The notes beneath the pieces were generated by a model, which was not told where the DNA came from, did not search any database, and was given only the letters and a program-made list of their open reading frames with translations. The translations under genes were made by a program, and so were the position numbers. Source: a virus. Taken from it: a DNA stretch of 44,823 nt. Shown here piece after piece: positions 1 to 44,108 of this stretch. Numbering within the stretch: the first letter of the stretch is position 1; each line of letters starts with the position of its first letter. The DNA lies in the IMG/VR virus record IMGVR_UViG_3300017917_002205, positions 1 through 44,823 of that record. One strand, written 5' to 3'.

Positions 1-1077
1 AGAAGCGATCAACATATCTAAGATCTCAAGATCAATCTCTAAAGAGATGTACTCAGACATTACAGCTGTTAATTCAGCTTCAGCATCCAATGAATGGTAT
101 GCATTTAAGTCTTGAGCGAATTCAGGAGTCCATTGTGCTTTCAATTTCTTGGTTTTAGCAACAATAGCTTCAGATCTCATTTGAACGTTGATTTGAGGAA
201 TAACGATAGTTGAAGCAGACTCAGCGTTTGGAGTTGAATAAGAAGCACCAGCTTCGAAATCACCACGAGCATTATCTTTAGTTACTTTATTGTATTCAAC
301 TAACCAAGTAGATGCTACTGAAGGAGCAGATCCAGTGAAGTAGAAGTTAACTACAGCACCGCTATAAGTTGTGAATTCTTGTAATAAAGTTGACAATGCG
401 AAAGTAGAACCTGAAGTTGCTATAAAGCCTCTTACACCTAAAACATCAATATCAGAGCTGATAGATGCGGTAGGGATAGATACTTTTTGGATTCTTCCTC
501 CAGCAGCAGAAGCAGAATAGTCACTGTTGAAGTTTACATCAGCCCAAGAAGCAGAAGCTACAGTGTAACTAGCAGCAGATGAACTTACTGAAGAAGAGAA
601 TTGGTTAGTAGAGTAAGTGAAACGACCAGCTCCGTATAAAGCACCTGTTGAAGTGTTACCGAAGTTAGCAGAAGAATCACCATACATTGAACTGTTTGCA
701 GCGAAAGGATTCTTATCAGTACCGTATTGGAAATCTAAGAAGAATACTAGACCTGAAGGTAAGTTCATTGGTTGAACTGAAACGAATTCTTTAGCAGCGA
801 TTTGACCGAATACTTTACGTACTAAAGGTAAAGCGATACCAGCCCATTGCTCACCAGTACCGGTTGTGAAGCTAGCACCAGTTCCAGTTTGTGATTGCTC
901 AATAACCAACTGTTTAGCTTGGTTCTCAAGAATCATTGACATATTATTCTTTTCAGTTTCGTTACTGATGTTATTTAAAAGACCAGTAGCTCCCCATTTT
1001 TTTGCCAATCTAGCAGCGTCAGATTGCAAAGACTGCCATGGGTTAGCAGATTCTAATAATGTTTGTACGTTTGACAT
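1..1077 (-). CDS. 23: Major capsid protein gp23, 3' end cut off by the window
   Basis: This is the HK97-fold major capsid protein of T4-like phages, which forms the hexamers of the head shell. I translated it by hand from the ATG at 1075-1077. The frame stays open for 359 codons to base 1, so the C-terminus lies outside the window. The N-terminus reads MSNVQTLLESANPW. Further on, a stretch with RKVFGQIAAKEFVSVQPM followed by NLPSGLVFFLDF is the typical gp23 signature, and the last visible residues (ISLEIDLEILDMLIAS) also match the family. It follows the scaffold gene after 29 bases of A-rich leader without the TATTTATAA motif, in the T4 order 20-21-22-23. In T4 the N-terminal part of gp23 is removed by gp21 during maturation, and the same is expected here. 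Confidence 0.95.
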   Translation of the reverse strand, partial: MSNVQTLLESANPWQSLQSDAARLAKKWGATGLLNNISNETEKNNMSMILENQAKQLVIEQSQTGTGASFTTGTGEQWAGIALPLVRKVFGQIAAKEFVSVQPMNLPSGLVFFLDFQYGTDKNPFAANSSMYGDSSANFGNTSTGALYGAGRFTYSTNQFSSSVSSSAASYTVASASWADVNFNSDYSASAAGGRIQKVSIPTASISSDIDVLGVRGFIATSGSTFALSTLLQEFTTYSGAVVNFYFTGSAPSVASTWLVEYNKVTKDNARGDFEAGASYSTPNAESASTIVIPQINVQMRSEAIVAKTKKLKAQWTPEFAQDLNAYHSLDAEAELTAVMSEYISLEIDLEILDMLIAS

Positions 1078-1106: not shown

Positions 1107-2318
1107 TTAGATTAAGCCTGCAAGTTTTTGGAACCTTTCAACCATTGCATTAGTTTCCATCACAGGCTGTTTTGATGTACCACCAATTGTTTTAGATGCA
1201 AATGATTTGTTTTCTCTCACCAACTCTCTCTTGTCTGATTTGTTTAAACCAGCAGATAAAGTTTCGTAAACTAACTTAGTTTCTTTTACAGTCTCCGCAT
1301 TGTCAAATGCAGAAAGTACTTGTACTTTTTGTGCTTCTGTCAAATTCTTAGCTTTGAAGATTTTGTTAGTGTAAAGTAATTTAGAATTAAGAAGGTTAAC
1401 TTCGTTTAAGTCTGCTTTTAAAGTTTCGATTGTAAGTAAAGCTTCTTCAAGTTCACTTGAACCTTCTTCTTTAGCTTTCTCAGCAGCTTTCTTAAGCATT
1501 GCTTTCTTTTCATCAGCAGATGCTTTCATAAACCCAGCAGCACCAGCAACACCCAAAGCAGAAATTACCATAGCAACATACTTAAGCATTTCAGCACCTT
1601 GCATTCCGAAAGAAGTTACATCTTCGTTTAATTCACTTTCTTCAGTTACTTCTTTGCCTTTGGTTGCACCTTTAGCTTTAGAAATCATAGCTTTTACAGC
1701 TCCTACTAAGGCAGAACCTGCTAAACCAGCACCAGCACCAAGGCCGCTAATAATAGCCTGTGCAGTATGCATGTTGTCAGTTAAACCTGTTTGAACAAGT
1801 TGTTGAGCTAAGTCGTTGATAACGTTTTCGTCTAAGTTTTCTTTGTTTTCCATCATTGGTTCTTCTTCTGGAGCTTCTTCTGTGTCCATGTCCATATCCA
1901 TTTCTGGAGTTTCTTCTGATCCTGGTCCAGCTTCTAGCTCACCAGCTTCAATCATTTCGTCAACTACACTTGCAATAAATGCTTCCAAGTCTTCAGCAGT
2001 CATGTTCTCAAGATCGATTTCTTCTTCCTCTTCTGTCTCCTCTTCTTCTCCAGGCATTTCCTCAGTTTCTTCTTCTGATTCATCCTCAAGTTCTTTAAGA
2101 AGTTCTTCAAGGTTGATTTCTTCCATAGAATCGGTATCTTCGTGTTTTACTTCCTCCATAGTGTCGTCTTCTTCCATTTCTGTTAATTTCTTTTCAAGCA
2201 TAGATTTCAAATGTGGAGTGAATGCTTCCTCTAATGCAGCTTTAGCATTAGTGATAGCCACTTCCTTTACCGCTTTTGCATCTGCAATCGCTTCTTTGAA
2301 CAATTCTCTGTTTGTCAT
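1107..2318 (-). CDS. 22: Prohead scaffold (core) protein, gp22-like
   Basis: This is a 403-residue main scaffold candidate, directly upstream of gp23. It is longer than T4 gp22 (269 residues). The first 160 residues are extremely acidic (long Glu/Asp runs around 45-160). The C-terminal third (about 295-360, with EVNLLNSKLLYTNKIFKAKN) is the gp22-like helical core found in marine T4-like phages. It ends in MVERFQKLAGLI, close to the N-terminal tag of the protein at 41596-42243. Two hydrophobic glycine/alanine-rich helices (about 190-210 and 245-263) are unusual for a scaffold. Leu-x-Glu sites at E164 and E232 bracket the first, suggesting peptides released by gp21, as T4 gp22 is degraded to internal peptides. 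The leader has a weak AGGA before ATG. Assignment rests on position plus the C-terminal region. Confidence 0.85.
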   Translation of the reverse strand: MTNRELFKEAIADAKAVKEVAITNAKAALEEAFTPHLKSMLEKKLTEMEEDDTMEEVKHEDTDSMEEINLEELLKELEDESEEETEEMPGEEEETEEEEEIDLENMTAEDLEAFIASVVDEMIEAGELEAGPGSEETPEMDMDMDTEEAPEEEPMMENKENLDENVINDLAQQLVQTGLTDNMHTAQAIISGLGAGAGLAGSALVGAVKAMISKAKGATKGKEVTEESELNEDVTSFGMQGAEMLKYVAMVISALGVAGAAGFMKASADEKKAMLKKAAEKAKEEGSSELEEALLTIETLKADLNEVNLLNSKLLYTNKIFKAKNLTEAQKVQVLSAFDNAETVKETKLVYETLSAGLNKSDKRELVRENKSFASKTIGGTSKQPVMETNAMVERFQKLAGLI

Positions 2319-3274: not shown

Positions 3275-3892
3275 TTAGAAAAGGGGACAATTACCATGTG
3301 CGCAGAGAATCTCCCGCACAATTTCATTTACCTTATCGTAATTTTTTACCGAAGGGTTCACACTTTCGTTCATGGTATGTTTACCTACCGGTGTCATCCA
3401 GGATCCTGGGTTAGAAGGAGTAGATACAAAATCAAAACATAATAATTCAAAATCATTCTGTACTTCTAAAGTCTCTCCCATTTGTTTTACTGAGCCCATC
3501 CCTCTTGATGATACACCAACAGTAATTCCTGAGTTAATCAATGCGTTTAGAATATTCCCAGAAGGGGTTGGAAGGATTTCAATTTTACCCATAATATGAT
3601 CACCATCCCACCAAATATCTTTGATGTTGTGACATACATTCTTTAAGTTAATAACAGTAGATTCTGGATGATCTAACTCACCAACTGCTCTATTTTGTTT
3701 AACTGAATCCATATACTTATTAATTTCCCTATCCCAGATTTTTCTGCTATAGTATCTACCGTTGCCGTTTTTTACTTCAGCAGTAGCTAAGATACCTTCT
3801 ACTAAAGGTAATCCGTTTGCACCTTTTCCTTCAGATAAACTTAAAGGCTTTGGTGTGAATGAGATGGTCTCAATAAGTAAATTTTTAGTCAT
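3275..3892 (-). CDS. 21: Prohead core protein protease gp21
   Basis: This is the serine protease that sits in the T4-type prohead core, cleaves scaffold, capsid and internal proteins after Leu/Ile-x-Glu, and then degrades itself. It is 205 residues from the chosen ATG; T4 gp21 has 212. The signature NGRYYSRKIWDREI (44-57) leads to the catalytic His in GELDHPE (H75) and the catalytic Ser in GVSSRGMG (S128/S129). A longer frame starts at 3940 but would overlap the upstream gene by 46 nt. The internal ATG at 3890-3892 sits just after the upstream stop and is preferred. This protease is the likely processing enzyme for the mosaic proteins at 3895-5552 and 11298-22390. Confidence 0.93.
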   Translation of the reverse strand: MTKNLLIETISFTPKPLSLSEGKGANGLPLVEGILATAEVKNGNGRYYSRKIWDREINKYMDSVKQNRAVGELDHPESTVINLKNVCHNIKDIWWDGDHIMGKIEILPTPSGNILNALINSGITVGVSSRGMGSVKQMGETLEVQNDFELLCFDFVSTPSNPGSWMTPVGKHTMNESVNPSVKNYDKVNEIVREILCAHGNCPLF

Positions 3893-5313: not shown

Positions 5314-5322
5314 TTATAAATA
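5314..5322 (-). promoter_or_regulatory. TATTTATAA start motif before the 471-residue core protein
   Basis: This is an exact motif on the coding strand, then CAT and the ATG. It lies in a 20-base gap between two head genes. Confidence 0.5.
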
Positions 5323-6422: not shown

Positions 6423-8312
6423 TTATTCCCTAATTTGACTCTCGTCTAATAGACCATTAGCTTTTCTTTCTCCTTCAAAAATCATCTTTTTCTTAGATGG
6501 AATTTCTTCTAATATTCTTGTGATTTTAGAAAATTCTCTCTTAGTTGCTTCCATTGCATACGGTGAAGTTTTATCTCTACCATACCCTTCTTGGTCGTCA
6601 ACTTTGTTTGCTTTTCTACCAAGTCTATCCATTCCTAAAGGATCTTCTGTACCATTGATAAAAGATGCTTTTTCTCTAGGACGGCCCATTTCTGGTTCGT
6701 CTTCATTGTAACCATCCGGTACTGAGCCTGGTCTTGTGTAGACTCTTCCTTTACCGTATGCTGTTGCAATGTCGTGAGGAGTTCCGTAAGTTTCTCCAGA
6801 TTCTAAAGGATCATTTCCTTCGTTTTCTATTTGAGATAATCTGAATTTACGCTTAGCATCTTCTCTAACCAGGTCTCTCATTTCTTCATACTCATCCTGG
6901 CTTAAGTGGAAGATATTATCATAAATCCAATCAGAAGAAATTAACTGAGATTCCATCATTTGAGTTGCAAGATCCATTTTTTCTTTTAATAACGCTACTC
7001 TTTCCTGATCATAAATGATTGAAGGAGTGGTTAATGATAATTCAAAATTGGTTAATGCTTCGTCTCTATATCCTTGAATGTATAAATGCACGAATGCAAT
7101 CTTATATAACTCAGAAACTATGATTCTCTGTATTTTTTCTATTGTTCTACCAAAGCGAATATCTTCTGCAGCCAAAGTAGCCTTTCCTTGTAATTTTTCA
7201 TCATAACCAAGGAATGCTTTTGGTATTCTTAAGGCAGCAAATAATTTATCCCTAAGGTAATTTACGTCTGTAATACCGTCATACTGTAATCCTCCTAAAG
7301 TATCAATTTTAGTTGCAGTGTCATTACCACGTACCGGGATATAAAAATCCTCCATTAAGTTCTGCATGTTGTACTTTAAATTATATTCACCTGTCTGCTG
7401 GTCGATATAAGGAGTACGCTTCATTTTAGTAATAGCCTTCTGCATGAAGCCTTCAACTTCATTAGGAGGAATACCACCGACATTCATGTAGAAAATTCTC
7501 TTCTCAGGAGCTCTTACAATTCTATGAACTAACATTGCATCTTCCATCAAAGTATACTGCTTGAATAATTTTCTAGCAGGTTCAATGTAAGAACGTCCAT
7601 AAGGTAAGAAATTAACGTCTGTTAAAAGACGGAAGTGGGCTATTTCGTAATTGTCGAAATAAATAGATTTGGCATCGTGCTGATTAGGAGTTTTAAAGTA
7701 TCCATAAGTATCAGCGGCCAAGCCGTCTGGGTCATAACGGAATCTAACAGCAGTTGGATTTTCTGAATCATAATGTTCTTGTCTTTCTATATTGAATGCT
7801 GAGAATGGAATTACATTATAAACACCGTACTTTTCTGAAGCTTCTAATTTCAAGAAAAAGTCTCCGTATTTACACATGTTTCTAATCCACCAGCTTAAAT
7901 TAAATTCAACATTTAATACATCATAAAATAAATTATAAAGTATTTTCTGTACATTCTCATCATTTGATCTGATGTGAAGCACTTCTCCCATATCATTCTT
8001 AAGAGTAGATTCTTCTGATAGAATATCTAAGGCTGAAGCAATGATTGCATCAGTATCCATAGCATCATATTCAGAATATAACTGTGTTCTTAAAGTCTGA
8101 TAATTGAAAGATGATTGATATCCGTATAACGAAGTCGGGGAAGTTGTATAAATTCTGTTGTATCTTGCTACTAAAGAATTATTTTCTAATTCTCCAGACA
8201 TCTGAATTTGATTTGTATCGGCAACTTTAAGTTGATCACCCCCAACGTTCCTTATAATTACATCTGTTGAGAATAATCTACGTAGTCTCGAAAATACACT
8301 AGTGTCTGCCAT
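6423..8312 (-). CDS. 20: Portal vertex protein gp20
   Basis: This 629-residue protein is the dodecameric portal, through which DNA enters and leaves the head and on which the prohead is nucleated. The length is slightly above T4 gp20 (524). Family signatures include the N-terminal YRxxxTTSPTSLYGYQ-type region, DILSEEST, a LTDVNFLPYGRSYIEPARK segment, and VGGIPPNEVEGFMQ followed by a conserved Lys/Arg-rich strand, then LRIPKAFLGYDE. The C-terminal 120 residues are charged and Gly/Pro-rich, probably disordered. It directly follows the terminase gene; in T4 the sheath (18) and tube (19) genes separate them. A TATTTATAC motif lies 18 nt before ATG. Confidence 0.95.
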   Translation of the reverse strand: MADTSVFSRLRRLFSTDVIIRNVGGDQLKVADTNQIQMSGELENNSLVARYNRIYTTSPTSLYGYQSSFNYQTLRTQLYSEYDAMDTDAIIASALDILSEESTLKNDMGEVLHIRSNDENVQKILYNLFYDVLNVEFNLSWWIRNMCKYGDFFLKLEASEKYGVYNVIPFSAFNIERQEHYDSENPTAVRFRYDPDGLAADTYGYFKTPNQHDAKSIYFDNYEIAHFRLLTDVNFLPYGRSYIEPARKLFKQYTLMEDAMLVHRIVRAPEKRIFYMNVGGIPPNEVEGFMQKAITKMKRTPYIDQQTGEYNLKYNMQNLMEDFYIPVRGNDTATKIDTLGGLQYDGITDVNYLRDKLFAALRIPKAFLGYDEKLQGKATLAAEDIRFGRTIEKIQRIIVSELYKIAFVHLYIQGYRDEALTNFELSLTTPSIIYDQERVALLKEKMDLATQMMESQLISSDWIYDNIFHLSQDEYEEMRDLVREDAKRKFRLSQIENEGNDPLESGETYGTPHDIATAYGKGRVYTRPGSVPDGYNEDEPEMGRPREKASFINGTEDPLGMDRLGRKANKVDDQEGYGRDKTSPYAMEATKREFSKITRILEEIPSKKKMIFEGERKANGLLDESQIRE

Positions 8313-11314: not shown

Positions 11315-11732
11315 CTTTTTTATCCGTTATCGGACCTCCAACAACCCAGGCATCACAAGTTCTTGCAGCTGCACATTTAAACTTAAGGAACCTACAGTAA
11401 CCTAAATCCCCGGCTTCAATAACATCAAAAGGATCTTCAGAACCTTCATCATCACCTATTCCCTTTGCAATACAGTCTAAAGTCTTTTTAGTTATATCAA
11501 ATGCTGCACAATTACCACAGAGTGATTTCTTAGCTTCTTCTATAGAATCTAATTTCCACATATCTGCTTTAGCTTGCCAGAATTTCTCATTAGGTTCGTT
11601 TGGATTTAATGGACCGTACCCATACTCATTAATTGCCTTCTGTCTGTTCTGAAGGTTTAGTTCGATGTTCTGCGTAGGTGCAGGGCATTTTCCAATCTCT
11701 GCTTCGCTTAATATGTCTAATAGGTTAATCAT
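11298..11732 (-). CDS. HiPIP-like cysteine-rich protein with capsid-type N-terminal tag
   Basis: This is 144 residues from the ATG at 11730-11732, which overlaps the upstream stop as ATGA; a start 15 nt further upstream is possible. The N-terminal helix MINLLDILSEAEIG has Leu-Ser-Glu (E10), like a capsid-targeting sequence with a gp21 site. Four cysteines follow the spacing of high-potential iron-sulfur proteins: C72-x2-C75 (SLCGNCAAF), C87 and C113 in a GYCRF context. Further Cys occur at 120 and 126 (KCAAARTCDAW). The middle (GYGPLNPNEPNEKFWQAKAD) is typical of a conserved phage family of unknown function. I infer a 4Fe-4S or zinc site. Its neighbours include a ferritin-like protein two genes upstream. 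Confidence 0.7.
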   Translation of the reverse strand: MINLLDILSEAEIGKCPAPTQNIELNLQNRQKAINEYGYGPLNPNEPNEKFWQAKADMWKLDSIEEAKKSLCGNCAAFDITKKTLDCIAKGIGDDEGSEDPFDVIEAGDLGYCRFLKFKCAAARTCDAWVVGGPITDKKDGNKS

Positions 11733-12484
11733 TTTGTTTTTCCCCAAGTTTTTCCTTTTCCAGGTGTTTTACATTGTGCTGCTGTTGGTCTACAAGCAGG
11801 ATATTTAGAGCGTTTCTCTCCTTCTTTTCTTCCGCAGGATTTATAACCTCCGCTTCCGTCTGGTGCGTTACAGTCTACCCATCCTTTTTCTTTTCCTTTT
11901 GCTCCTTGACGGCTAAACCACTTATGTAATGATTCAGCTTCTTCTAAATTTTCAACTTGAACTAGGTTTATTTTAATTTTTTTATTTCCTAGAGCCCAGT
12001 TAGCTACAAGTCTATGATGTCCATCATAAATTACTTTTTCACCGTCTGGGAATTCAACAACATTTATAATAGGTAATTCTTTTGTATTTGTAATTATTTG
12101 TTTTACTTTATTGCTTTGGATATTAGGTTGTGTAATATGAATGTCTTCTGTATTCACATACTGTTCCTGATCTTTATCTTTATTTTTTTCAAATAATTCG
12201 ATTACTTCACTCCAGCTATGTTGACTTTTATTAAAGATGCCTTCTATATTTTTTGCATCATCAAATAGCTTTCCCTTAGGTAACTCATCAATTTTTTGTT
12301 CTGCTGAAAAGGCTGTATCTTCTTTTAAGTCTTTCCAAATCTCACCTTGACGGCATCTAACCACAGCACCTGATTTATAGGCTGAAGGTTTGTCGTATTT
12401 ACGATCAGCAATACGAAGACACCTATCACGCTTCTCTTTTTCTTCTAAAAGAATCTGCTGTAGTATGTCTGTAAGCTTGGTCAT
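11729..12484 (-). CDS. ParB/sulfiredoxin-fold protein in a mosaic with cysteine modules
   Basis: This 251-residue protein has three parts. It starts with a capsid-type tag, MTKLTDILQQILLEEKE (Ile/Leu-Leu-Glu at 13-15). A short Arg/Cys module follows (about 19-52, with RKYDKPSAYKSGAVVRCRQG). The core (about 108-177) is ParB-like: VNTEDIHITQPNI, then VIYDGHHRLVANW (DGHHR at 154-158), the motif used for nucleotide or DNA binding in ParB and Srx-type proteins. The C-terminus (198-251) is a small Cys/Lys module (GWVDC...KSCGRK...YPACRPTAAQC). ParB-fold proteins in phages include nucleases and CTPases, and the activity here is unknown. Start tag and mosaic build suggest virion cargo. Confidence 0.7.
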   Translation of the reverse strand: MTKLTDILQQILLEEKEKRDRCLRIADRKYDKPSAYKSGAVVRCRQGEIWKDLKEDTAFSAEQKIDELPKGKLFDDAKNIEGIFNKSQHSWSEVIELFEKNKDKDQEQYVNTEDIHITQPNIQSNKVKQIITNTKELPIINVVEFPDGEKVIYDGHHRLVANWALGNKKIKINLVQVENLEEAESLHKWFSRQGAKGKEKGWVDCNAPDGSGGYKSCGRKEGEKRSKYPACRPTAAQCKTPGKGKTWGKTK

Positions 12485-12491
12485 AAGTTTG

Positions 12492-12614
12492 TTAAGAAAA
12501 TAATAAATCGAATGTTAAAGTTCTCTTCATTAACAAGTAAGCAGTGTATTTAGGAGGTAAGTTGATACTTATTCTTTTTCTTGCTCTGCTTTTTCTTTGT
12601 CTTTTTAATTTCAT
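12492..12614 (-). CDS. 40-residue very basic protein
   Basis: This short frame has its ATG overlapping the stop codon of the ferritin-like gene (TAATG), a common translational coupling. The product begins MKLKRQRKSRARKRISIN and has ten Arg/Lys in its first 14 residues, then a more hydrophobic tail (YTAYLLMKRTLTFDLLFS). It could bind nucleic acid or be packed with the DNA. No homologue is recalled. The support is the overlap, the otherwise empty 129-base gap and the strong composition bias. Confidence 0.45.
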   Translation of the reverse strand: MKLKRQRKSRARKRISINLPPKYTAYLLMKRTLTFDLLFS

Positions 12615-13159
12615 TAGAAGTAAGTCTGTTCGTAATATAATATTTCAAAGGAATTAGCAACGTTTATAAGTTGTGCTGCATTTAATAGGTCTGAATATTC
12701 TGCTACTGATTCTACTTGCCCGGTTCTTAGTGTTTGTAAGAAATCAAACGTAGATAAGTCTGAGGAGAATATAGTTGTTGATACGTTGTTATAAGCTAGT
12801 AATAAATCTAATTCTAATTTATATGCTTTGTTAACAATATCAATGAGGTTTGTAAAGTCTGGTATTAATTTGATTGGTGCAATCACCGGAAGTACATTCC
12901 AATCTACCATGTATTTTTGTAGCATCTCTGCATGAGTTAATTCATTAGCAGCTTCTTGTGTGAAGAATGCAGTTGCTTTTAAATACCCTTTATCTGCACA
13001 CCAGTTTGCTGCATTTCTATAAAAGTAATGAGCGGTATATTCGTCTTTTAGTCTCTCAGTAAGCATTAAAACCACCTGAGGGTCTAAGGTAACTGGTATC
13101 ATAACATCAGCAGGATTTGCTGATTGCAATTCATTCAAAGTTTTTAACTTAGTTTTCAT
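12614..13159 (-). CDS. Ferritin-like diiron protein with possible capsid tag
   Basis: This 181-residue four-helix protein is of the ferritin superfamily. Iron ligands line up with bacterial ferritin: E40 in LKDEYTAHYFY, E73 and H76 in AANELTHAEML (ExxH), E116 in YKLELDLLLAY, and a Gln148-Val-Glu150 segment in the fourth helix. The 33-residue distance between the first two Glu equals that of E. coli FtnA. Ferritins oxidise Fe(II) with oxygen or peroxide and store iron. The N-terminal extension MKTKLKTLNELQSANP carries Leu-Asn-Glu (E10) and is not part of the ferritin fold. It looks like the tags of neighbouring proteins, so it may send the enzyme into the head. An exact TATTTATAA lies 9 nt before ATG. 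Confidence 0.85.
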   Translation of the reverse strand: MKTKLKTLNELQSANPADVMIPVTLDPQVVLMLTERLKDEYTAHYFYRNAANWCADKGYLKATAFFTQEAANELTHAEMLQKYMVDWNVLPVIAPIKLIPDFTNLIDIVNKAYKLELDLLLAYNNVSTTIFSSDLSTFDFLQTLRTGQVESVAEYSDLLNAAQLINVANSFEILYYEQTYF

Positions 13160-13977: not shown

Positions 13978-13986
13978 TTATAAATA
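13978..13986 (-). promoter_or_regulatory. TATTTATAA start motif before the 264-residue mosaic gene
   Basis: This is an exact motif followed by TAT and ATG. It touches the stop of the upstream nuclease gene, whose last codon begins at 13987. Confidence 0.5.
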
Positions 13987-14961
13987 TTATGAGAATAGAG
14001 TATTAGTTATGATGTTTAAAGCACCCTGGTTAGTTGATACTCCTTTTAGTAATTGCTCGTCTGATAGTCCTTCTAGTAATTCTGAGGTTATTTGAGTGTA
14101 TTTAATGTTTCCTTTTTGGCTTACATTAACAATATATCCTCCAATACCCGGTTTTTTTGATAATTTAGTTGTTATTAGACGTCTAAGCATTTCTGCTGTA
14201 CCGTGTTCTGGTGTGATTTCACCTTCAATATGAAGTGCTTTTTTAACTGCGTCAATATTATCGTAAATATTCTTTATTAGAGCGTATTGACTTGCTATCT
14301 TCCTTAGATCACTTTGATCAAAGTCAGAAAGTCTTTTAAATGCTTCTAATAATTCATCAGTGTTAAAAGTCATTGTTCCTGCAGTTCTTTTAGCTCCTTG
14401 AAAAGTACCTACTAGTGTAGAAACTCCAAACACAACACCTAAGATTGCAATATTATCTTTATCTGATCCGTAACGACCTAAGGTCATTCCGGTAGTTTCA
14501 TAAGCTTTAACTTCAAGCCCGGTTTTACCATCTATTATTAAATCTGGGTTATCACTTCCCCTGCTATCTTCAACAGTATGTCCTCTAGATAAAAGCCAAT
14601 ACATAGCAATTTCACCGTTTCCAGATCCTTTGCTTCCTGCACTATCGATATCCTTTTGTGATTTTGGAGGTGATATAGGGTATAATTTAGAGAAAATCTT
14701 CTCATCTTCCCCTGTTAGGTTTTGATTTTTAGGTTCTCCTACTATGTAAACACGGGAAGGTTGTGGTATTTCTCCGTTCTCATCTCCGGTTAAGACTTTA
14801 GCTATAATTCTGTCATACTGGCTTCTGTCTTTAGGAGCTGCTGATGTTTCTACTTCAAATAATTCAAATAATAGTTTCCTATCAGCTTCATTACTTAAAT
14901 CCGGGTATCCTTTAGGAAACTTGTATGAAACCTGTCTTATAAATTTTTCTAAAATATCCAT
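13987..14961 (-). CDS. PD-(D/E)XK-type endonuclease-like protein
   Basis: This 324-residue protein has a restriction-endonuclease fold signature: E117 in GNGEIAMYWLL, D140 in SDNPDLIID and E150-x-K152 in LEVKAYE, with typical spacing. It is probably a nuclease or a DNA-repair/packaging-linked enzyme; the target cannot be told. The first 40 residues (to LFELFEVETSAAP) include Leu-Phe-Glu steps that could act as a removable tag, but the evidence is weaker than for its neighbours. It overlaps the upstream gene by one base (ATGxxxTAA-type junction). A nuclease packed with the DNA would need to be kept inactive, so cytoplasmic action is equally possible. Confidence 0.65.
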   Translation of the reverse strand: MDILEKFIRQVSYKFPKGYPDLSNEADRKLLFELFEVETSAAPKDRSQYDRIIAKVLTGDENGEIPQPSRVYIVGEPKNQNLTGEDEKIFSKLYPISPPKSQKDIDSAGSKGSGNGEIAMYWLLSRGHTVEDSRGSDNPDLIIDGKTGLEVKAYETTGMTLGRYGSDKDNIAILGVVFGVSTLVGTFQGAKRTAGTMTFNTDELLEAFKRLSDFDQSDLRKIASQYALIKNIYDNIDAVKKALHIEGEITPEHGTAEMLRRLITTKLSKKPGIGGYIVNVSQKGNIKYTQITSELLEGLSDEQLLKGVSTNQGALNIITNTLFS

Positions 14962-15458
14962 TAAACTTCCTCCGGTGTTTCTTCTGCTGGTGTTTCTTCT
15001 CCGCCAAGTGGTTCTTCCAAGGCTGCTTCCATGTTACCACCACCGCCGGTGCTTGAGCCTGTATCCATTCCTCCAGTATCTGCTTCATTTTCAGGATTAA
15101 CTGCTTTACCGTACCTGAGTAATCTAGCGATAGAATCTATTGCTTGATCTTCTTCACCTAAATTAAGTAAATAGTATCTTTTTCCTTCAACTTCAGCCAT
15201 CCAAGATCTTCCTAAATCTGATAAATAAAAAGAAAAATTATTTTCTAGAATTACTCTGAAAGTAGGTGGTTTTGGTGCTACCCATTGTATGTCTTTCACA
15301 AACAAATTAAACTGTGGAGACATCAAATCGGTGAGAATAGAGATCATATCCGGTACTTGATTTAATATCTTATACTCTTGGTATTTATTAATACCCTCAC
15401 TTTTCATCTTTTTAATGATAGTCTTTTTAATTACTGATCTTAGTTCTTGTTTGTTCAT
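14961..15458 (-). CDS. Unknown protein with acidic Gly-rich tail
   Basis: This 165-residue protein has a basic helical N-terminus (MNKQELRSVIKKTIIKKMK), a compact middle with VILENNFSFYLSDLGRSWMAEVEGKRYYLLNLGEEDQ, and a low-complexity C-terminus (about 120-165) rich in Gly, Thr and Glu. The same kind of N-terminal helix is seen in head-associated proteins of T4-like phages. No enzyme motif is present. It is translationally coupled to the nuclease-like gene downstream. Confidence 0.6.
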   Translation of the reverse strand: MNKQELRSVIKKTIIKKMKSEGINKYQEYKILNQVPDMISILTDLMSPQFNLFVKDIQWVAPKPPTFRVILENNFSFYLSDLGRSWMAEVEGKRYYLLNLGEEDQAIDSIARLLRYGKAVNPENEADTGGMDTGSSTGGGGNMEAALEEPLGGEETPAEETPEEV

Positions 15459-15480: not shown

Positions 15481-16698
15481 TTATTTTGTAAAGCCACCCT
15501 TTGTTTGTGTATGCGGCATTACTTTATACATTGTTTTGATTGGTGACATTTCGTTCTCATTCACTGAATCAAAGTAATGTCTTTCGCTTAAATTTATAGT
15601 TTTTCTCTTTTTTAAATCGAAAGGAGTTAAGAAAGGTTTACCTTCTGAATAAGAATGAACTGCTTGGTAGATTCTACCATCTGCTCCCCTTACTACATCC
15701 CCAATGTTTAAAGCAGTTCCTTCTGCATCTCTTTGAGGTTCGTTATTCACCATCAAAGGAGCAGTATTAGAAATTGATTCTCCTTCAAGGTAACTTCTAA
15801 CTGCATTAAGGTAATCTTCTGCCTTAGTTAACTTGGATTGAACCCATGCCTGTAATTGTGTTTTTTCTCCAATAGAATCAAAAAGTGATTTAGCATTTTT
15901 AACAATTGAGATTAATTGTGTTCTAGCCATTTGACCTTCGTAGTCGTATTCTTTTGCTTCAAGGATTGGATGCTTTGCTTCAGTAACTGGTGCACGGTGT
16001 GGTGTAGTTAAATCAGGATTCCAACCTTTAATCATGTTAATCCAGAAAGTCTTGATTGCTCTTAAAGCTTCTTCTCTAGATTCTTCTGGTATTCCTTTAA
16101 GGCGTTCTTCGAAGTCCATAAGTACTTCCTCCATAGTCATTTCTACAGATGGACCAGATACATCAACGTAGTCATCATCATCCATGGTTTTTTCGAAGAA
16201 ATCGTAGACTTCTTTAAGTTCAACATCTACTCCTTGATCTGTGTATTTTTTAATATCAGAAACGTTTGTTCCTTTCTTCATTACAACCGCTCCTGATTTT
16301 GGGTCAGCATCTACTTCTTTTAACTTGGTTAGTACACTAGTAACGACTTCTTTTTTTAAGCTACGGTCTTTAGCTGCTTTTCTCATAGGTTCGGTCTTGT
16401 TACCATCTTTATCTAAATCAAGATAATCCGGCTTAGCTCCTTCTTTAAAAGGTCTTGGGCAAGGTGTACCTTTAACGTGAACGTGTCCACATCTTCCGCA
16501 TAATGTACCTTTAGCTTCAGTAACCCCTTTATTATGTCTCCTTTGACTCAGCTCCGCTTTAGCGTCTTCTAAATCTTGTTTAGTATCCGCAACTCCCCTC
16601 TCGTCTTTTTTTTGAGTATAATACTGTAATTCATTACTTAGGTTTATGATATGTAGAGCTAATTGATTAGCGGTTAAATCTTTAAGAGATTCTGTCAT
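15481..16698 (-). CDS. Mosaic head-associated protein: zinc ribbon, EF-hand-like and helical modules
   Basis: This 405-residue chain has Val/Ile-x-Glu sites at E61 (GVTEAKG), E240 (PVTEAKH) and E247 (ILEAKE). Between them sit a small zinc ribbon (CGRCGHVHVKGTPC, 67-80), a Ca-binding-like loop (PDYLDLDKDGNKTE, 90-103), an acidic region (about 165-210), and after E247 a helical module (YDYEGQMARTQLISIVKNAK, 251-270) that I recall from head or core proteins of other marine T4-like phages. The C-terminus is a small beta-rich region (GDVVRGADGRIYQAVHSY). Such a patchwork fits a polyprotein cut in the prohead. No enzyme activity is apparent. Confidence 0.7.
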   Translation of the reverse strand: MTESLKDLTANQLALHIINLSNELQYYTQKKDERGVADTKQDLEDAKAELSQRRHNKGVTEAKGTLCGRCGHVHVKGTPCPRPFKEGAKPDYLDLDKDGNKTEPMRKAAKDRSLKKEVVTSVLTKLKEVDADPKSGAVVMKKGTNVSDIKKYTDQGVDVELKEVYDFFEKTMDDDDYVDVSGPSVEMTMEEVLMDFEERLKGIPEESREEALRAIKTFWINMIKGWNPDLTTPHRAPVTEAKHPILEAKEYDYEGQMARTQLISIVKNAKSLFDSIGEKTQLQAWVQSKLTKAEDYLNAVRSYLEGESISNTAPLMVNNEPQRDAEGTALNIGDVVRGADGRIYQAVHSYSEGKPFLTPFDLKKRKTINLSERHYFDSVNENEMSPIKTMYKVMPHTQTKGGFTK

Positions 16699-17782: not shown

Positions 17783-20700
17783 TTAGAATTCTGGTAAAGA
17801 TAATGATTTTCTTTTTGTTCTCCAAAGATTTAAGATACTTTCTTTTTCTTCCGGAGTAACATCCTGCATATCTAGGTAGTTATTTAAAACATCCTTAAAA
17901 GGAGTTCTTGTCTTTTTAGCTTTTAAATACATTCCCTGAAGCATTGGTTCTAATTCTGACTGAAGTCTAAAATAGTCTGCTTTAGGTAAAAGCTCCCAGT
18001 CAATCATTTGTCTTAACATTTCATCATCCGGAGTCTCTTTTGCAGGTACTAAATTAACACCCATCTGAGTTAGATGCTCAATTTCATGCCTAACTACATC
18101 GATTAGATCTTCATAAATTCTTGACCAGAACTGAGGTAGTGATCTAGGATCAACTTGGAATCTGATTTCAAGATATGCTAAATCTGGTTCATCCTCATCA
18201 TCATCATCATCGTCGCTTCTTTGAGATTCTGCATCTGCTCCACCATCAACTTTGTAAGTTCCTTCTTCTGTTTCTTGAACTAAAAGATCAGCACTTAAAG
18301 CAAAATCTAATGGACGGCCTTTTGCATCTTGGGTTTCATATTCTTCTTCAAAGCTTAACTTGCCTTCTGTACCGTCATATTCTTCTTTCCAGGCAGCCAT
18401 AATATCCGTAACTACTCTTCTGGTAACTGAATCATAAGCTCCTTCTGTTAATGGTTCAGAATCTTCTTCATTAGGTGCAAAGCCTTTTATTCTTCTAATA
18501 CTATTATCACCTTCTCTATCATTCTCCCAGGCTCTAAAGATCATATTACCATTATCGTAAGCTTCTCTTTCGATTTCCTTTAAATAATCGTCTTCGTTGA
18601 TATTAGTTGTACCGATACCGCCCAGTCTACCTTCAAGGTTTTGACAGTGGTGAATCATTTCATGAGCAAAAGAACGTAAAATATCCTTAGGGTGTCTCCC
18701 TGTTACATAAAGTACAATTACTTTATTGTTAGGATCGTAATATGCGGTTCTCCCAAGAGTATTTTTAGCATTGTCTTCATCCTCTACAAATTCTACCTTA
18801 GGTGCAGGAGTAATGTTTAAACCTTGCTCTACCATGTAATTAGTTAGTTCCTCAATAAGCGGTTCTAATTCTTTCTGTACCGGGGAATCAAAAGTAAAAT
18901 CTGAAGTATAAAGACCTTCTGTCTGTTCTTTTTCCTCTTCTAAAGGTTCATACCCTGAACCATACGGTGCTGATTTACCTTCTTTTTCCTGTATTGCGTT
19001 ATCAGGTAGAATGACTAATACATCTTCTCCAACTTTTTCAATTTTTGCTTCAGGGAATGCTTTAGTAATAAATGCTCTATATAAAGCATCTCTTTGAGTG
19101 CCAAAATCTTCTGTTCCTTTTTTAGAAGGAGTGTAGCTAATAGCTTTAAATCTACCTTTAGTTAATTTTATATAGTGTTTAACTATATCTACGATAGTAG
19201 ACATTACTCTGTATAACTCTCCTTTATTTGTTACTATGGTTGCTGATGCTACTTTTTCACTATCCTCTTCATCTTCTACGCCAAAATCAATATCAAGAAC
19301 AGGGTGGTTAACTGATTCGTTATCAATGAATCTTGTGGCTGTAATATTTACTTCGTACTTAGTTCCTTTGTCTGTTTCAAACTTAGTGGTGATAGTATAA
19401 CCCATATCACCTGTTTCTTCCCACTTATAAGGCTGTAGGTTTGCTTCACCTACTTCATTTAATTCTTCAAAAGTCATCTTAGGACTACTAGTCATGAAGT
19501 TTGGTTTTCTCATGATAGTCTTAGCAATGGCTTTATTCGTCATATTTAAGAAAGGAATGTTTAAATTTGTTGCTTTATCGTTTGCAACAATCTCATCGTA
19601 TTTCTTGAAGAATTCAAAAAATTCTTTTTTATTTCTTCCAAGTCTTTTAAAGAATCCAATCAACTGTGCAAGAGTAATATCAGATTCTCTTCCGGTTAAT
19701 CTATCAAAGACATGCTTGGAAGTTAAATCAACATCCACTGGTGCAAGTTGTGTATCGGCAAAATTATCTGCTTGTTTTAATTCAGCAGGAGTTACTGATT
19801 CATTCTTAGAATGGAAATTAATAAACCAGTTGGCTTGCTGTTTATCTAACGGTGTAGCATTTTCTCTATTTTTAAATTTCTTAGCTTTCTCAATAGTAAC
19901 ATCACCGCCGTATGCTTTTGTAATTTTAGCTTTAAAGGTTCCCGGTGCTCCGTTATCAGTTCTTTTTCCTTTATATGCTTCTGTAAGGTCTTCTTTTTTA
20001 CCTTTTGAAAGAGCTTGAATGTATTCTTTAACGGTTACTCCTTTAGGTAGGAAAGTCTCAATTGCTTGAATGTCTTTATTCTTAATAGCGGTTCTTAATC
20101 CACTAGCAGATAATCCTTTTAGGTTACCGATATTAACCGGGGTTACATGTCCATATTTTTCTTTGTTCTTCTCAACACTCTTCCAACGATCCTCCTCATC
20201 TTTTCCAAAAACGGCAAGATATTTATTTTCCGGATGTGCTTCAAATTCTTGGTATGCATCTAAAACCGGAGTTGGATTTTGTGCTAATTTAATTTCAACG
20301 TTGTCCGGTATTAAGCCTTTTTGTTTGTAAAGATTCCAAACTGCCATTGCCTGACTTGCATCAACAGGTACTTGACCTTCTTTTACTCTTGGCTGTTTTG
20401 AAACATAAACATAAACCTTGTTAACCTTTGGTGCAATTACCTGAATTGCTTTTAGGTGACTGGCATGAGGTGGTTTGAATGCTCCAGGAAATACTGCAAT
20501 GGTCTGTTTCCCTATTTCAGCTTCTAAGATTGGTCTTATTAAATCTACGATAAATGAACCGTATTTTTCTTCCAAGGTAGCAACCGTGTCTAAAGCCATT
20601 TGTTTATTATCGCCTTTAGGAGTTCCAGCTTCCCCTGCATTAATAACTACTAAAGACCTAAATACGCCTTTTATACGATTCATTGAGCGGGGATTTTTTA

Positions 20701-22390
20701 TTTTAGATTTAATATCTTTTAGTAGATCCTTCCAATCTCCATCCAGTTTATAATTTTGAAATAGTTTTAATACATCGTTCCAGTTGAAAGAAGTCCAGAT
20801 TTCATTTCTACCTACCTCTTTAAAGTCATCTGTTAGTGTGACTACCCGTAATGTTAAGCCTTTGCTAGATAAATTAAATTCAAGTTCCTGGTTTTTTCCT
20901 AGTTTAGGTATATTAGTGATGCCTAAGCGTTTGAATATTTCTGCTGGGTTTTCTTCTAATAGTATAGCTTTTGCCAGTCCTACTAATAAACCTTGCTTCT
21001 CTGCAGGTAGATCTAAGAAGCCTTTTCTATAGTCACTTTCTTCTTCAGAAGCAACTATCATATTGTCTATTTGAACTGTTAAGCCCGGGTATCCTTCTAT
21101 TGGGAATTGAACTATTACAATATCCCCTGTACCTGCTGCTTTTTTCCCTATATGACGGCCAGCTGTAAACGGTATAGTTACATCATCCGGTAGTGATGAA
21201 ATAAAAGATGCAAAATTCTGTTTAAGTTTCTTTTTATCTTTTTCATCTCCTTCAATATGAATAATTAGATCCAGGTCGCCGTGATCTGGTTTAACTGTGG
21301 TGTTATATGAGCCTGAGATTTTTGCTGTTTTAAACCCTGGGAATTTATCTAAAACTTTCTTAATATAGGCTTTAAGAGTGCTCTCTACTGCTGCTCTAGG
21401 TATTCTGTTTGCTCCAATTGATCCGGATTCAGTTAATGTCTGGTATTTTATTAACTTAGAATCATCCGGTAAATACTTGCCTTTTAATCCTAATCTTTCT
21501 TGACTATTAATCCAGTAATCTTGTAAGTCTTCAGGTATATCTGCTCTTGTAGAATCTAAAATTTTCAAATACCTATCTATAATTTTATTATACTCCTCTT
21601 TAGGTAAATTTGCTTTAAGGTACTCTCCAAGTTTAAAATAGTCATTTAGGGTGTCTTTATCTAGATTGAAACCATAAACCTTATTTAGTAGGTCAATTGC
21701 TTCCTGTGAGTTACTTGCAACTTGTTCACCAGTGGCTTTATCAACTACACCAGTTCCGTGTCCAAACGTATAGTCTTTATTTGCGAATAAAGAAAGCATT
21801 AACTGCGTTCTATGAAGCCCTTTTACATTACCGGCATAGGTGTTAGAGTAGTAGCTAAATGTTAACCAATCTAAGTTACCTATATTAACATCTGTTTGCA
21901 CATATTTAGGTAGTGGCTTTTTCTTAGCATCGTATTGCTGTATGCTGCAAAATAATGCTCCTGAGCCAGATCCTTTTATATCTACTTCAATATCGTCATA
22001 AGCATCGTTAATTTTATCTCCAATAAGTGCAATAATTGCTCGTAACTTAATTTTTTCCGGCGATGCTGTCTTTGCTCTTTTTGTGATACCAGCTACTAAC
22101 TCATTATATTTTTTTTCATCTAATCCCCACCCTTTAAGGTCTGGGGTTTTACCGTCCGGAAAGAAGTTTTTAACATCATATGCTAAGTCAATATCACCAG
22201 ATAGTTCTTTTTTACCTACTGAACCTAGTTTTTCGAATTGTTTAAATGTGGGTGCCTTTGCGGGGAATAACTTAGATAATTTATCTACAAATACTTCTAA
22301 TGTAGGTTCTATATCGGCTTTTGCAATTGGACTAGTTGTTCCAAATACATTACCGCCTTCTTTTATTATCGCTGAGGTAAGCTTGGTCAT
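17783..22390 (-). CDS. Giant multienzyme polyprotein: two nucleotidyltransferase-like, one NMNAT/cytidylyltransferase-like and two zincin domains
   Basis: This 1535-residue protein has modules in this order. Nucleotidyltransferase-like 1 has G56-S57 and D66-x-D68, with a third Asp near 167. Leu-Thr-Glu follows (E321). Nucleotidyltransferase-like 2 has SGSYN, D372-x-D374 and D442. Leu-Glu steps lie near 479 and at E623. A cytidylyltransferase/NMNAT-like domain (628-795) has FPGAFKPPHASH (HxxH at 642-645) and GLSASGLRTAI (759-769). Leu-Thr-Glu follows (E804). Two unknown modules span 805-975. Leu-Asn-Glu (E979) precedes an unknown beta-rich module (985-1140). Zincin 1 has H1243-E-M-I-H1247 with ExxA near 1274. 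Leu-Thr-Glu (E1316) precedes zincin 2 (H1435-E-I-E-H1439). The N-terminal MTKLTSAIIKEGG resembles a capsid tag. I infer cutting by gp21. Activities are predicted from motifs only. Confidence 0.85.
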   Translation of the reverse strand: MTKLTSAIIKEGGNVFGTTSPIAKADIEPTLEVFVDKLSKLFPAKAPTFKQFEKLGSVGKKELSGDIDLAYDVKNFFPDGKTPDLKGWGLDEKKYNELVAGITKRAKTASPEKIKLRAIIALIGDKINDAYDDIEVDIKGSGSGALFCSIQQYDAKKKPLPKYVQTDVNIGNLDWLTFSYYSNTYAGNVKGLHRTQLMLSLFANKDYTFGHGTGVVDKATGEQVASNSQEAIDLLNKVYGFNLDKDTLNDYFKLGEYLKANLPKEEYNKIIDRYLKILDSTRADIPEDLQDYWINSQERLGLKGKYLPDDSKLIKYQTLTESGSIGANRIPRAAVESTLKAYIKKVLDKFPGFKTAKISGSYNTTVKPDHGDLDLIIHIEGDEKDKKKLKQNFASFISSLPDDVTIPFTAGRHIGKKAAGTGDIVIVQFPIEGYPGLTVQIDNMIVASEEESDYRKGFLDLPAEKQGLLVGLAKAILLEENPAEIFKRLGITNIPKLGKNQELEFNLSSKGLTLRVVTLTDDFKEVGRNEIWTSFNWNDVLKLFQNYKLDGDWKDLLKDIKSKIKNPRSMNRIKGVFRSLVVINAGEAGTPKGDNKQMALDTVATLEEKYGSFIVDLIRPILEAEIGKQTIAVFPGAFKPPHASHLKAIQVIAPKVNKVYVYVSKQPRVKEGQVPVDASQAMAVWNLYKQKGLIPDNVEIKLAQNPTPVLDAYQEFEAHPENKYLAVFGKDEEDRWKSVEKNKEKYGHVTPVNIGNLKGLSASGLRTAIKNKDIQAIETFLPKGVTVKEYIQALSKGKKEDLTEAYKGKRTDNGAPGTFKAKITKAYGGDVTIEKAKKFKNRENATPLDKQQANWFINFHSKNESVTPAELKQADNFADTQLAPVDVDLTSKHVFDRLTGRESDITLAQLIGFFKRLGRNKKEFFEFFKKYDEIVANDKATNLNIPFLNMTNKAIAKTIMRKPNFMTSSPKMTFEELNEVGEANLQPYKWEETGDMGYTITTKFETDKGTKYEVNITATRFIDNESVNHPVLDIDFGVEDEEDSEKVASATIVTNKGELYRVMSTIVDIVKHYIKLTKGRFKAISYTPSKKGTEDFGTQRDALYRAFITKAFPEAKIEKVGEDVLVILPDNAIQEKEGKSAPYGSGYEPLEEEKEQTEGLYTSDFTFDSPVQKELEPLIEELTNYMVEQGLNITPAPKVEFVEDEDNAKNTLGRTAYYDPNNKVIVLYVTGRHPKDILRSFAHEMIHHCQNLEGRLGGIGTTNINEDDYLKEIEREAYDNGNMIFRAWENDREGDNSIRRIKGFAPNEEDSEPLTEGAYDSVTRRVVTDIMAAWKEEYDGTEGKLSFEEEYETQDAKGRPLDFALSADLLVQETEEGTYKVDGGADAESQRSDDDDDDEDEPDLAYLEIRFQVDPRSLPQFWSRIYEDLIDVVRHEIEHLTQMGVNLVPAKETPDDEMLRQMIDWELLPKADYFRLQSELEPMLQGMYLKAKKTRTPFKDVLNNYLDMQDVTPEEKESILNLWRTKRKSLSLPEF

Positions 22391-22393
22391 ATG

Positions 22394-22402
22394 TTATAAA
22401 TA
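22394..22402 (-). promoter_or_regulatory. TATTTATAA start motif before the polyprotein gene
   Basis: This is an exact motif, then CAT and ATG. It fills the whole gap after the RecB-like nuclease gene, whose stop codon begins at 22403. Confidence 0.5.
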
Positions 22403-24134: not shown

Positions 24135-24569
24135 TTAACCGGGTAGGTGCAAGTCTTTTCTAAAAAATTTACCGAGGATGTTGTCGTTGTATGAGATTGT
24201 AGTGAGTACGTCATATTTACATTGATATTCTATCTCATAATATGTGAGTTCTTTTTTAGATTTGCAAAGTTTAAGGATTTTTCTTTCAAATTGATCCACA
24301 CCCTGTACTTTAATATCTGCTAGAAGTTCTTTATTAGAACCCCAGTACATCATCCAATTTGATTCTTTTGTTACTATTTTATGAAGAGGTTTTCTTCCTG
24401 GGCCTGTCTGTTCTGAGATTTCTTTTTTGGTAAGTTTAGTTTTTGTATTATTCCAAAATACTTTCTTTCCTATGTAAATTTTTCCTGTGGTTTTGTTTTT
24501 AATCTTATATACAAATCCAAACCAATCCTCCGGAGAGAATGGGTCAATATAAATCCACTTCTGGGTCAT
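24135..24569 (-). CDS. GIY-YIG nuclease-like protein
   Basis: The 144 residues include the GIY-YIG core: FGFVYKIKNKTTG (18-30) followed by KIYIGKKVFW. Downstream are a conserved WMMYWGSNKELLADI segment and an acidic YEIEYQCKYDVL, where the catalytic Glu is expected. Proteins of this build are conserved in many marine T4-like phages and are annotated as endonucleases. They may be domesticated rather than mobile. It overlaps the surface-protein gene next to it by one base and precedes the primase gene by 17 bases, so it seems part of the DNA-enzyme island. Confidence 0.75.
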   Translation of the reverse strand: MTQKWIYIDPFSPEDWFGFVYKIKNKTTGKIYIGKKVFWNNTKTKLTKKEISEQTGPGRKPLHKIVTKESNWMMYWGSNKELLADIKVQGVDQFERKILKLCKSKKELTYYEIEYQCKYDVLTTISYNDNILGKFFRKDLHLPG

Positions 24570-41595: not shown

Positions 41596-42243
41596 TTATC
41601 CTTGTTTAAGAATAATATTTTTATTGAAGTAGGTGATTGTGTTTGCAATTTGACGAATCAATTTCTCATCACCTAATTCTTTAGCTGCACGGTATGCATC
41701 TGTTAATTCACTAAATGCTTTTTTAGACTCCGAAGAACCAGCATCAATATCACCTGTAGTGTCCATATTCATATCGATCTGTTCACCACCTTCTTCTCCG
41801 GTAGTATCTAAATCAAGATCAAGATTATCAACATCACCTTCAACATCTGATTCAATGTCAATATCTTCTTCCTCTTCTTTCTTCTTAGCTTCATTTAAGG
41901 ATCTCTCAGCAAGGATTGCTTCTTTAAGTTTCTTCTTAAATTCACTCTTAGTCATTTTCTCCCCTGTTGATTCTGACATATGCATTTCTTCAGTTTCTCT
42001 TTTTTCTGCTTCAGCCATAGAAGAATTAACAGCAGATTTAATAGCCATTACTAAATCCTCACCGCCTATTTCTAAAGCCTTAGACATAAATTTTTTCAAA
42101 TCTGAAGTGATCTTCTCCTCAGTATCCCAAGCAGTCATAATGTTAGAATGAAAAGTATCATCCATAAGATCTTCCGTAGTTGCAGAGTAATTCTCAGTGA
42201 TAACACCGGCAAGTTTCTGCATTCTTGTAAATTGTTTATTCAT
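41596..42243 (-). CDS. Acidic head-associated protein with scaffold-type tag
   Basis: The 215 residues start MNKQFTRMQKLAGVITENYS. The block F-x-R-M-Q-K-L-A-G-V-I matches the last residues of the gp22 scaffold (MVERFQKLAGLI), and Ile-Thr-Glu (E17) directly follows as a possible gp21 site. The middle has a helical MTKSEFKKKLKEAILAERSL and a long acidic stretch (about 120-165, rich in Asp/Glu). The C-terminus is a helical bundle-like part (FSELTDAYRAAKELGDEKLI). It may be an extra core protein encoded far from the head genes. It has its own terminator. A TATTTATTA variant lies upstream. Confidence 0.7.
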   Translation of the reverse strand: MNKQFTRMQKLAGVITENYSATTEDLMDDTFHSNIMTAWDTEEKITSDLKKFMSKALEIGGEDLVMAIKSAVNSSMAEAEKRETEEMHMSESTGEKMTKSEFKKKLKEAILAERSLNEAKKKEEEEDIDIESDVEGDVDNLDLDLDTTGEEGGEQIDMNMDTTGDIDAGSSESKKAFSELTDAYRAAKELGDEKLIRQIANTITYFNKNIILKQG

Positions 42244-44099: not shown

Positions 44100-44108
44100 T
44101 TATAAATA
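44100..44108 (-). promoter_or_regulatory. TATTTATAA start motif before the adhesin gene
   Basis: This is an exact motif, then TAT and ATG (3-nt spacing), in the 19-base gap after the 36-residue peptide gene. Confidence 0.5.

Follow-up and report, generated by a model that had tools for sequence, protein, structure and literature searches.

The window, by which we mean the whole stretch of DNA analysed here, is a 44.8-kb virus record that carries a T4-like set of head genes comprising gp20, gp21, an open reading frame (ORF) in the scaffold position, and gp23 (Table 1). It also encodes, in one place only of this record, a very long ORF that an earlier sequence-only reading had interpreted as a multienzyme polyprotein with prohead-protease sites between its domains. 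This ORF is real, with a proper start codon, and lies on the minus strand; the gp21 gene that the same reading had placed in the window is confirmed by its Pfam and PHROG matches. The pairing of portal and terminase by which the packaging setting of polyvalent proteins is recognized is present as well, gp20 being identified by Pfam and the terminase by position and annotation.

Of the annotated relatives, those in Flavobacterium phages of the 'immuto' type are the closest, with 44.6% identity over 72% (vB_FspM_immuto, MW353175). From these we infer a host in the Flavobacteriia. In contrast to the single chain of the window, the close homologue in vB_FspM_immuto is split between two genes (182-183) and its main chain is without M4-M6; the second gene is annotated as an NMN adenylyltransferase, the other merely as hypothetical. 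An ORF at 2507-3232 of the window, a likely HNH-type endonuclease by reading only, is inserted between the scaffold-position gene and gp21, and a GIY-YIG-like ORF lies at 24135-24569. The immuto gene QQO91850 matches the SegE GIY-YIG domain (E 3e-26), so that its annotation as 'NAD synthetase' looks wrong.

Table 1. Features of the window. A slash in a peptide marks the predicted cut; residue numbers are those of the 1535-residue chain.
Feature	Coordinates	Strand	Evidence and remarks
gp23 major capsid protein, truncated at window end	1..1077	minus	PF07068 E 2e-35
Scaffold (gp22)-position ORF	1107..2318	minus	between gp21 and gp23; C-terminus VERFQKLAGLI
gp21-like prohead protease (Peptidase_S77)	3275..3892	minus	PF03420 E 1.5e-32; phrog_207 E 5e-59; alignment
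gp20 portal	6423..8312	minus	PF07230 E 8e-65
Terminase ORF	8341-9915		adjoins portal; identity from position and annotation of immuto counterpart
Separate tagged cargo candidate, ParB-like	11729..12484	minus	MTKLTDILQQILLE/E
Separate tagged cargo candidate, ferritin-like	12614..13159	minus	MKTKLKTLNE/; PF00210 E 3e-19; among head genes
Polyprotein ORF P0001	17783..22390	minus	1535 aa, ATG start
N-terminal tag, residues 1-11, capsid-targeting-like	22358..22390	minus	MTKLTSAIIKE/; similar tags in relatives; pLDDT < 50 at 1-12
M1, residues 12-321, Pol-beta-type nucleotidyltransferase	21428..22357	minus	alignment, model; separate gene in most relatives
Codon of E321, M1/M2 seam	21428..21430	minus	TLTE/SGS; L[TNS]E/SGS in 9/9 fused forms, window included
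M2, residues 322-623, second Pol-beta-type nucleotidyltransferase	20522..21427	minus	PF14792, alignment, Foldseek
M3, residues 624-804, HIGH-superfamily nucleotidylyltransferase (PPAT/NadD/NMNAT fold)	19979..20521	minus	motif GAFKPPHxxH; Pfam, phrog, VIA
M4, residues 805-868, conserved ~60-aa module, function unassigned	19787..19978	minus	alignment; also found in tag-M4-zincin genes
M5, residues 869-979, RegB-like (BECR-type) RNase candidate	19454..19786	minus	alignment; RegB_T4 sub-threshold
M6, residues 980-1135, GNAT-like fold (DUF6934-like)	18986..19453	minus	VIA fold search
17-residue spacer, residues 1136-1152	18935..18985	minus	flanked by two LxE sites; pLDDT < 50 at 1138-1144, 1153-1168
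M7z, residues 1153-1316, zincin 1	18443..18934	minus	HEMIHH ... ExEAY; motif invariant in 10 aligned sequences
M9, residues 1317-1535, zincin 2	17786..18442	minus	RHE[IL]EHLT; alignment
Promoter-like motif TATTTATA	22395..22402	minus	few nt upstream of polyprotein ATG; common to portal and tail genes
Separate tagged cargo candidate	41596..42243	minus	MNKQFTRMQKLAGVITE/

The window has 12 coding-strand copies of the promoter-like motif TATTTATA, of which 11 are no more than 32 nt upstream of a start codon, against 0.3 expected; copies upstream of minus-strand starts include those at 5315-5322, 13979-13986 and 44101-44108. Variants of the motif lie upstream of M1 in 21 of 29 relatives, as against 1 of 50 M2 genes. 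These positions suggest that TATTTATA is probably a late promoter from which transcripts with very short leaders would start. Coding-strand copies of TATAAATA in the window were not enriched near starts.

Domain organization of the chain

The domain content proposed from the letters alone, namely two nucleotidyltransferases, an NMNAT-like domain and two HExxH domains, is borne out by weak Pfam matches, a PHROG match, fold matches and conserved motifs. M1 bears the motifs LGSxGKKxxSGDIDL and a conserved QxDxN, and M2 bears GS..GDLD..QxDN together with a weak match of residues 329-403 to DNA_pol_B_palm (PF14792, E 3e-4, under the Pfam cut-off); a Foldseek search with the model of residues 1-804 found Pol lambda/beta in the M2 region (E ~1e-7). 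In M3, residues 633-692 weakly match CTP_transf_like, the polyprotein matches a PHROG cytidyltransferase (E 3e-6), and VIA aligned 147 residues with PPAT/NadD (Z 14.4, rmsd 2.8). The RegB_T4 family (PF10715) was matched by four of six M5 members, all below the curated cut-off (best E 0.0019), and the assignment of M5 as a RegB-like, putative RNase is a lead only. For M6, the top VIA rows were nearly all GNAT-domain chains (Z 8.6 for YhhK/PanZ and 8.3-8.4 for GmvT/TacT/AtaT), with weak Foldseek E-values (> 0.3). The HEMIHH and HEIEH-type motifs of the two zincins are conserved in relatives. A sequence search of the PDB with the whole protein gave no match. At least two predicted catalytic domains of unrelated activity are present in this one polypeptide.

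Scans of IMG/VR, queried both by the full-length protein and by module profiles, yielded about 365 loci and, in phages other than this one, about 250 related ORFs, onto which HMMs of eleven modules were mapped. MAFFT alignments were built from colinear rows; mixing in single-module rows misplaces rows. Among 166 non-redundant multi-module chains we found 67 architectures and 314 joints, a mosaicism of the kind that characterizes polyvalent proteins. Module order is free, as in M3-M5-M9-M6-M6-M7z, M9-M7z-M6-ZnR-M5, M6-M4-BECR2-M7z and the stand-alone tag-M4-M7z, and relatives also contain two extra module types, namely a HAD phosphatase-like domain and a zinc ribbon (both named by sequence reading). 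Modules, tags and sites are swapped as cassettes among related phages. Relatives of the M7z zincin or of M4 were also seen in two jumbo-size contigs, L019 and L050 (339 and 329 kb), with a divergent gp21.

Cleavage-type sites lie at the module joints

The five glutamates that had been named as module borders, E321, E623, E804, E979 and E1316, are correct, E979 lying in the context LNE/VGEA. The chain as a whole is not unusual in its content of [LI]xE, with 20 sites against 19.7 expected from composition, and an excess in number was therefore rejected; placement alone is unusual. Ten of the 20 sites fall in the seven inter-module strips, which cover 268 of 1535 residues and would be expected to hold 3.5 (binomial p = 9e-4). 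The remaining ten consist of E11 at the tag end, E1534 at the C-terminus, and eight sites inside folded modules. The proposed raw count of sites inside versus between domains would therefore be ambiguous if taken alone, and it is site density and the comparative tests that decide.

AlphaFold models of residues 1-804 (pLDDT 89.5) and 799-1535 (pLDDT 84.3) consist of folded modules joined by low-confidence linkers. The pLDDT falls below 50 at 1-12, 608-626, 799-816, 977-983, 1091-1096, 1138-1144, 1153-1168 and 1304-1314, of which 1091-1096 is a loop within M6, and the block around E321 has a mean of 62. All five named borders lie in or directly beside such confidence dips, as do E11, E608, E1135 and E1152. 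E92, E256, E287, E479/480, E1180/1181, E1266/1272 and E1427 lie in blocks of 87-98; the HMM borders place E1180/1181 in a joint strip, but in the model it is part of a confident helix. The structure models therefore agree with the placement first proposed, and at the level of sequence and model the protease-type sites stand between independently folded domains, as in a polyprotein. If the chain is cut, the eight interior sites must be shielded by folding.

The comparative data bear strongly on the claim that L/I-x-E tripeptides mark module borders. An [LI]xE is present at 80% of the 314 joints, and at 291 (93%) when Val and Met are also allowed at P3, although these joints come from related sequences, so that the counts are inflated and do not represent independent events. 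The density of [LI]xE per 100 residues is 3.03 at joints versus 0.65 in module interiors, a ratio of 4.7; VxE (2.8) and MxE (7.9) are likewise enriched at joints. Among control motifs, when D, K, N, S or Q stands in place of Glu the corresponding ratio is 0.79-1.10; when Glu follows aromatic/Ala, basic or D/E/S/T residues it is 0.65-0.77. Corrected for composition, observed over expected [LI]xE is 0.53 in interiors and 2.21 at joints, compared with 1.20 for 909 other ORFs on these contigs, and VxE and MxE are also below expectation inside modules. The controls, similarly corrected, are mostly near 1 with some scatter; the few outliers include [KR]xD at joints (1.64), to which the GRYD start of M9 contributes, and MxK inside modules (0.44). 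Depletion of [LIVM]xE is seen in 9 of 11 module families, and in M4 [LIVM]xD is absent too. Interior depletion coupled to joint enrichment is the pattern expected of a chain that meets a protease of such specificity.

Pairwise homology, a measure independent of the assigned module borders, ends within six residues of an [LI]xE in 35% of cases versus 13.8% at random (controls 0.84-1.01). A majority of joints carry [LIVM]xE in 41 of 45 ordered module pairs, compared with 20 pairs for xD and 25 for xK. The four exceptions are M4-M5 (0/4), M4-BECR2 (0/1), M3-M3 (0/9) and M5-ZnR (1/4). The missing sites in M4-M5 and M4-BECR2 suggest that the RNase-like partner stays joined to M4, and M4-M5 would probably be released as one joined unit. 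The M3-M3 'joints' were rejected as real joints, being apparently split hits of one domain, and constitute an accidental negative control. At P2 and P1', sites at joints tend to have N/T and G/A, respectively, and interior sites P/E and I/L.

The same motif appears where genes have been fused. M1 and M2 are neighbouring genes in most relatives, M1 ending in YKTA or similar before its stop codon and M2 beginning with MSGSAGG or similar; in the fused forms an LxE has been added at the seam (Table 1). A sequencing artefact was rejected as the source of the fused form, there being eight other loci with the same fusion and added LxE. M6 is preceded by LNE/VGEA or FE/VG irrespective of whether M4, M5 or M9 lies upstream, and M9 is preceded in most cases by [LI]xE/G(R/A)YDS after M6 or M7z. 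In immuto, a separate ORF of 841 residues (L002:27789-30314) joins homologues of the window genes 14961-15458 and 15481-16698 with LxE sites at the joint, and is a probable second polyprotein, as judged from this arrangement.

N-terminal tags and the prohead protease

The internal proteins of T4 carry propeptides of 10-19 residues, the capsid-targeting sequences, which gp21 removes by cutting after L/I-x-E (PMC9026906). The chain of the window begins with a propeptide of this form, 11 residues ending in IKE, and relatives begin with MIKLTSLLKQILNE/ in the same manner. The resemblance to a capsid tag that was noted earlier is thus upheld, both by the low model confidence of this segment and by the exchange of tags among relatives. 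First modules usually follow a short amphipathic-looking tag that ends in LxE, and the type of tag varies independently of the module (MIKLTSLLKQILNE/, MNSLVKSLIQPLLE/, MELNGLVYDMIKDLLPE/, MKKSQLRQIIKE/): the M1 tag of relatives reads MIKLTSLLKQILNE/GGNVF or similar, and other tags precede other first modules. Tags were judged by direct reading, a strict regular expression having proved too narrow (15/207). An LxE at residues 8-24 is found in 58% of first-module ORFs versus 36% of other ORFs, a difference that is modest partly because genes beginning with M2, which lie behind M1 in an operon, have no tag of their own, and partly because start codons were chosen mechanically.

The boundaries of the head proteins themselves are similar. 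The gp21 of the window begins MTKNLLIE/, and LLIE/ or a close variant begins gp21 in most relatives. LVIE/Q is the probable propeptide boundary of the window gp23, and in relatives the expected boundary column of gp23 mostly reads V[TSKVI]E, LDE or similar; the V-type boundaries fit the acceptance of Val at P3. Among 25 long module-carrying contigs, Peptidase_S77 and gp23 were each found in 24, so that a gp21-type protease accompanies the chain in the same genome both in the window and in nearly all of these relatives.

The C-terminus of the scaffold-position ORF (AERFKKLAGLIK in relatives) resembles a class of N-terminal tags of the form RMQKLAG(I/V)ITE/, which is represented by the window ORF at 41596-42243, by L002:25458-25922, and in L302, L373, L377, L380, L399 and L400. 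By this resemblance, the N-terminal tag may mimic the C-terminal end of the scaffold, which could be how capsid targeting works. Many unrelated immuto proteins (L002:16077-32714) share tags such as NFDLKKFLVE/NKLT and MKKS.L..(I/L)IKE/, which suggests, from their N-termini, a large set of head-packed proteins.

Discussion

Several lines of evidence together strongly support the identification of the inter-module L/I-x-E tripeptides as sites of the gp21 prohead protease: the statistics of joints across relatives, the fusion seams, the exchange of tags, the boundary of the phages' own capsid protein, and the structure models. We consider it likely that the ORF encodes an encapsidated 'polyvalent' effector polyprotein of a T4-like Flavobacteriia phage that is cut in trans by gp21 and delivered with the DNA. 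Packaging, cleavage and delivery are proposed by analogy with T4 internal proteins and polyvalent proteins, together with the probable late promoter, and the functions of the pieces are predicted. The 11-residue tag, acting as do T4 capsid-targeting sequences, would bring the chain into the prohead core, where gp21, encoded by a separate gene, would cut the tag and about seven linkers, each time after [L/I(V/M)]-x-E, as the placement of sites suggests. Cutting would free about seven folded proteins in fixed stoichiometry, comprising the two Pol-beta nucleotidyltransferases, the PPAT/NMNAT-type nucleotidylyltransferase, M4 together with the RegB-like RNase candidate as one unit, the GNAT-like protein and both zincins; the predicted products are residues 12-321, 322-623, 624-804, 805-979, 980-1135, 1153-1316 and 1317-1535. 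By analogy, the pieces would remain in the head and then enter the host with the DNA. Putative targets, a speculative list, are host tRNA, mRNA, nucleotide/NAD pools or defence proteins.

Polyvalent proteins, in which 2-15 disparate enzymatic domains are shuffled in single phage chains and predicted to be injected, were described by Iyer et al. in 2017 (PMC5512222). Zincin, Pol-beta nucleotidyltransferase, GNAT and BECR-RNase types are all on the published list (PMC5512222). In that work, embedded peptidases, chiefly of the zincin type, are said to release the domains, or the chains are described as uncut, and T4-like Alt-type ARTs are not counted as genuine polyvalent proteins (PMC5512222). 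The chain of the window differs in that its joints, after a short T4-like tag, bear sites of a separately encoded prohead protease. In its N-terminal tag ending in L/I-x-E, its gp21-type protease in the same genome and its late head-gene setting, it resembles the T4 internal proteins and Alt (PMC9026906, PMC3012670); however, T4 cargo consists of single proteins trimmed at their ends, whereas here several unrelated enzymes share one tag with sites between them. The ejection proteins of phiKZ and SPN3US, processed by gp175/gp245 (PMC10052503), are also packaged in the head and cut by a gp21 homologue after a short Glu-ending motif, as is predicted here from sequence. In SPN3US, all identified cleavages by the prohead protease except its own yield N-terminal propeptides (PMC10052503). 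The Dar system of phage P1 (DarB tag, DdrB, DarA) offers a further likeness in its large anti-defence proteins, which are packaged in the head and bear a capsid signal at the N-terminus, but no array of cleavage sites between enzymes is reported there and the DarA processing site was not determined (PMC9024508). In the literature that we searched, prohead proteases act in shell-protein trimming, scaffold removal and propeptide clipping. The suggestion that no system of this kind had been described holds in part: injected multidomain polyvalent proteins (PMC5512222) and T4 L/I-x-E tags are each known separately, but their combination, a multi-enzyme chain cut by a prohead protease, was not found in the searchable literature, outside of which preprints and subscription papers largely lay. 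Among papers naming immuto, we found no virion proteome of an immuto-type phage.

Processing of the chain by its own zincins, before or after injection, has a precedent in the autoprocessing proposed for other polyvalent proteins (PMC5512222), and two intact zincin motifs are present. The same sites nevertheless occur at 31 of 35 joints in multi-module ORFs that contain no zincin, the motif is the one published for gp21 (PMC9026906) and matches the phages' own capsid boundary, and the tag ends in it too; we regard the embedded zincins as quite improbable agents of cleavage. Another account dispenses with cleavage and takes the ORF to encode an ordinary multidomain cytoplasmic enzyme, its L-x-E tripeptides reflecting the composition of Glu-rich linkers. 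This would agree with the unremarkable total of [LI]xE, but not with a joint enrichment and interior depletion that persist after correction for composition and are absent for [LI]xD/K/N/Q, with the insertion of L[TNS]E exactly at fusion seams, or with tag swapping, and it is the least probable of the readings we considered.

Alternatively, the chain could be packaged and cut by gp21 while its enzymes serve within the head, in assembly or in DNA packaging, with DNA ends, nucleotides or core proteins as possible substrates, instead of acting in the next host. The late promoter-like motif and the head-gene neighbourhood are compatible with such a role, and core proteins of T4 are also cut into pieces (PMC9026906). 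On the other hand, the high turnover of modules and their RNase, GNAT and nucleotidyltransferase content suggest functions in conflict, and T4 internal proteins and Alt are injected; we therefore think action within the head unlikely and favour delivery to the host.

On balance, we lean towards the view that this T4-like clade uses a plug-and-play cartridge, in which exchangeable tags and modules with gp21-site joints would allow host-directed enzymes in any combination to be made as one chain, packed by means of one tag, cut in the prohead into equal amounts and injected, and in which modules move freely between stand-alone tagged genes and chains. If true, many effectors would be delivered in fixed ratio through a single targeting tag, and the avoidance of the cleavage motif inside modules would be explained. 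A tag followed by [LIVM]xE joints would furthermore provide a sequence rule by which injected proteins may be recognized among unannotated phage genes, and the prediction is directly testable in any cultured phage of the immuto group.
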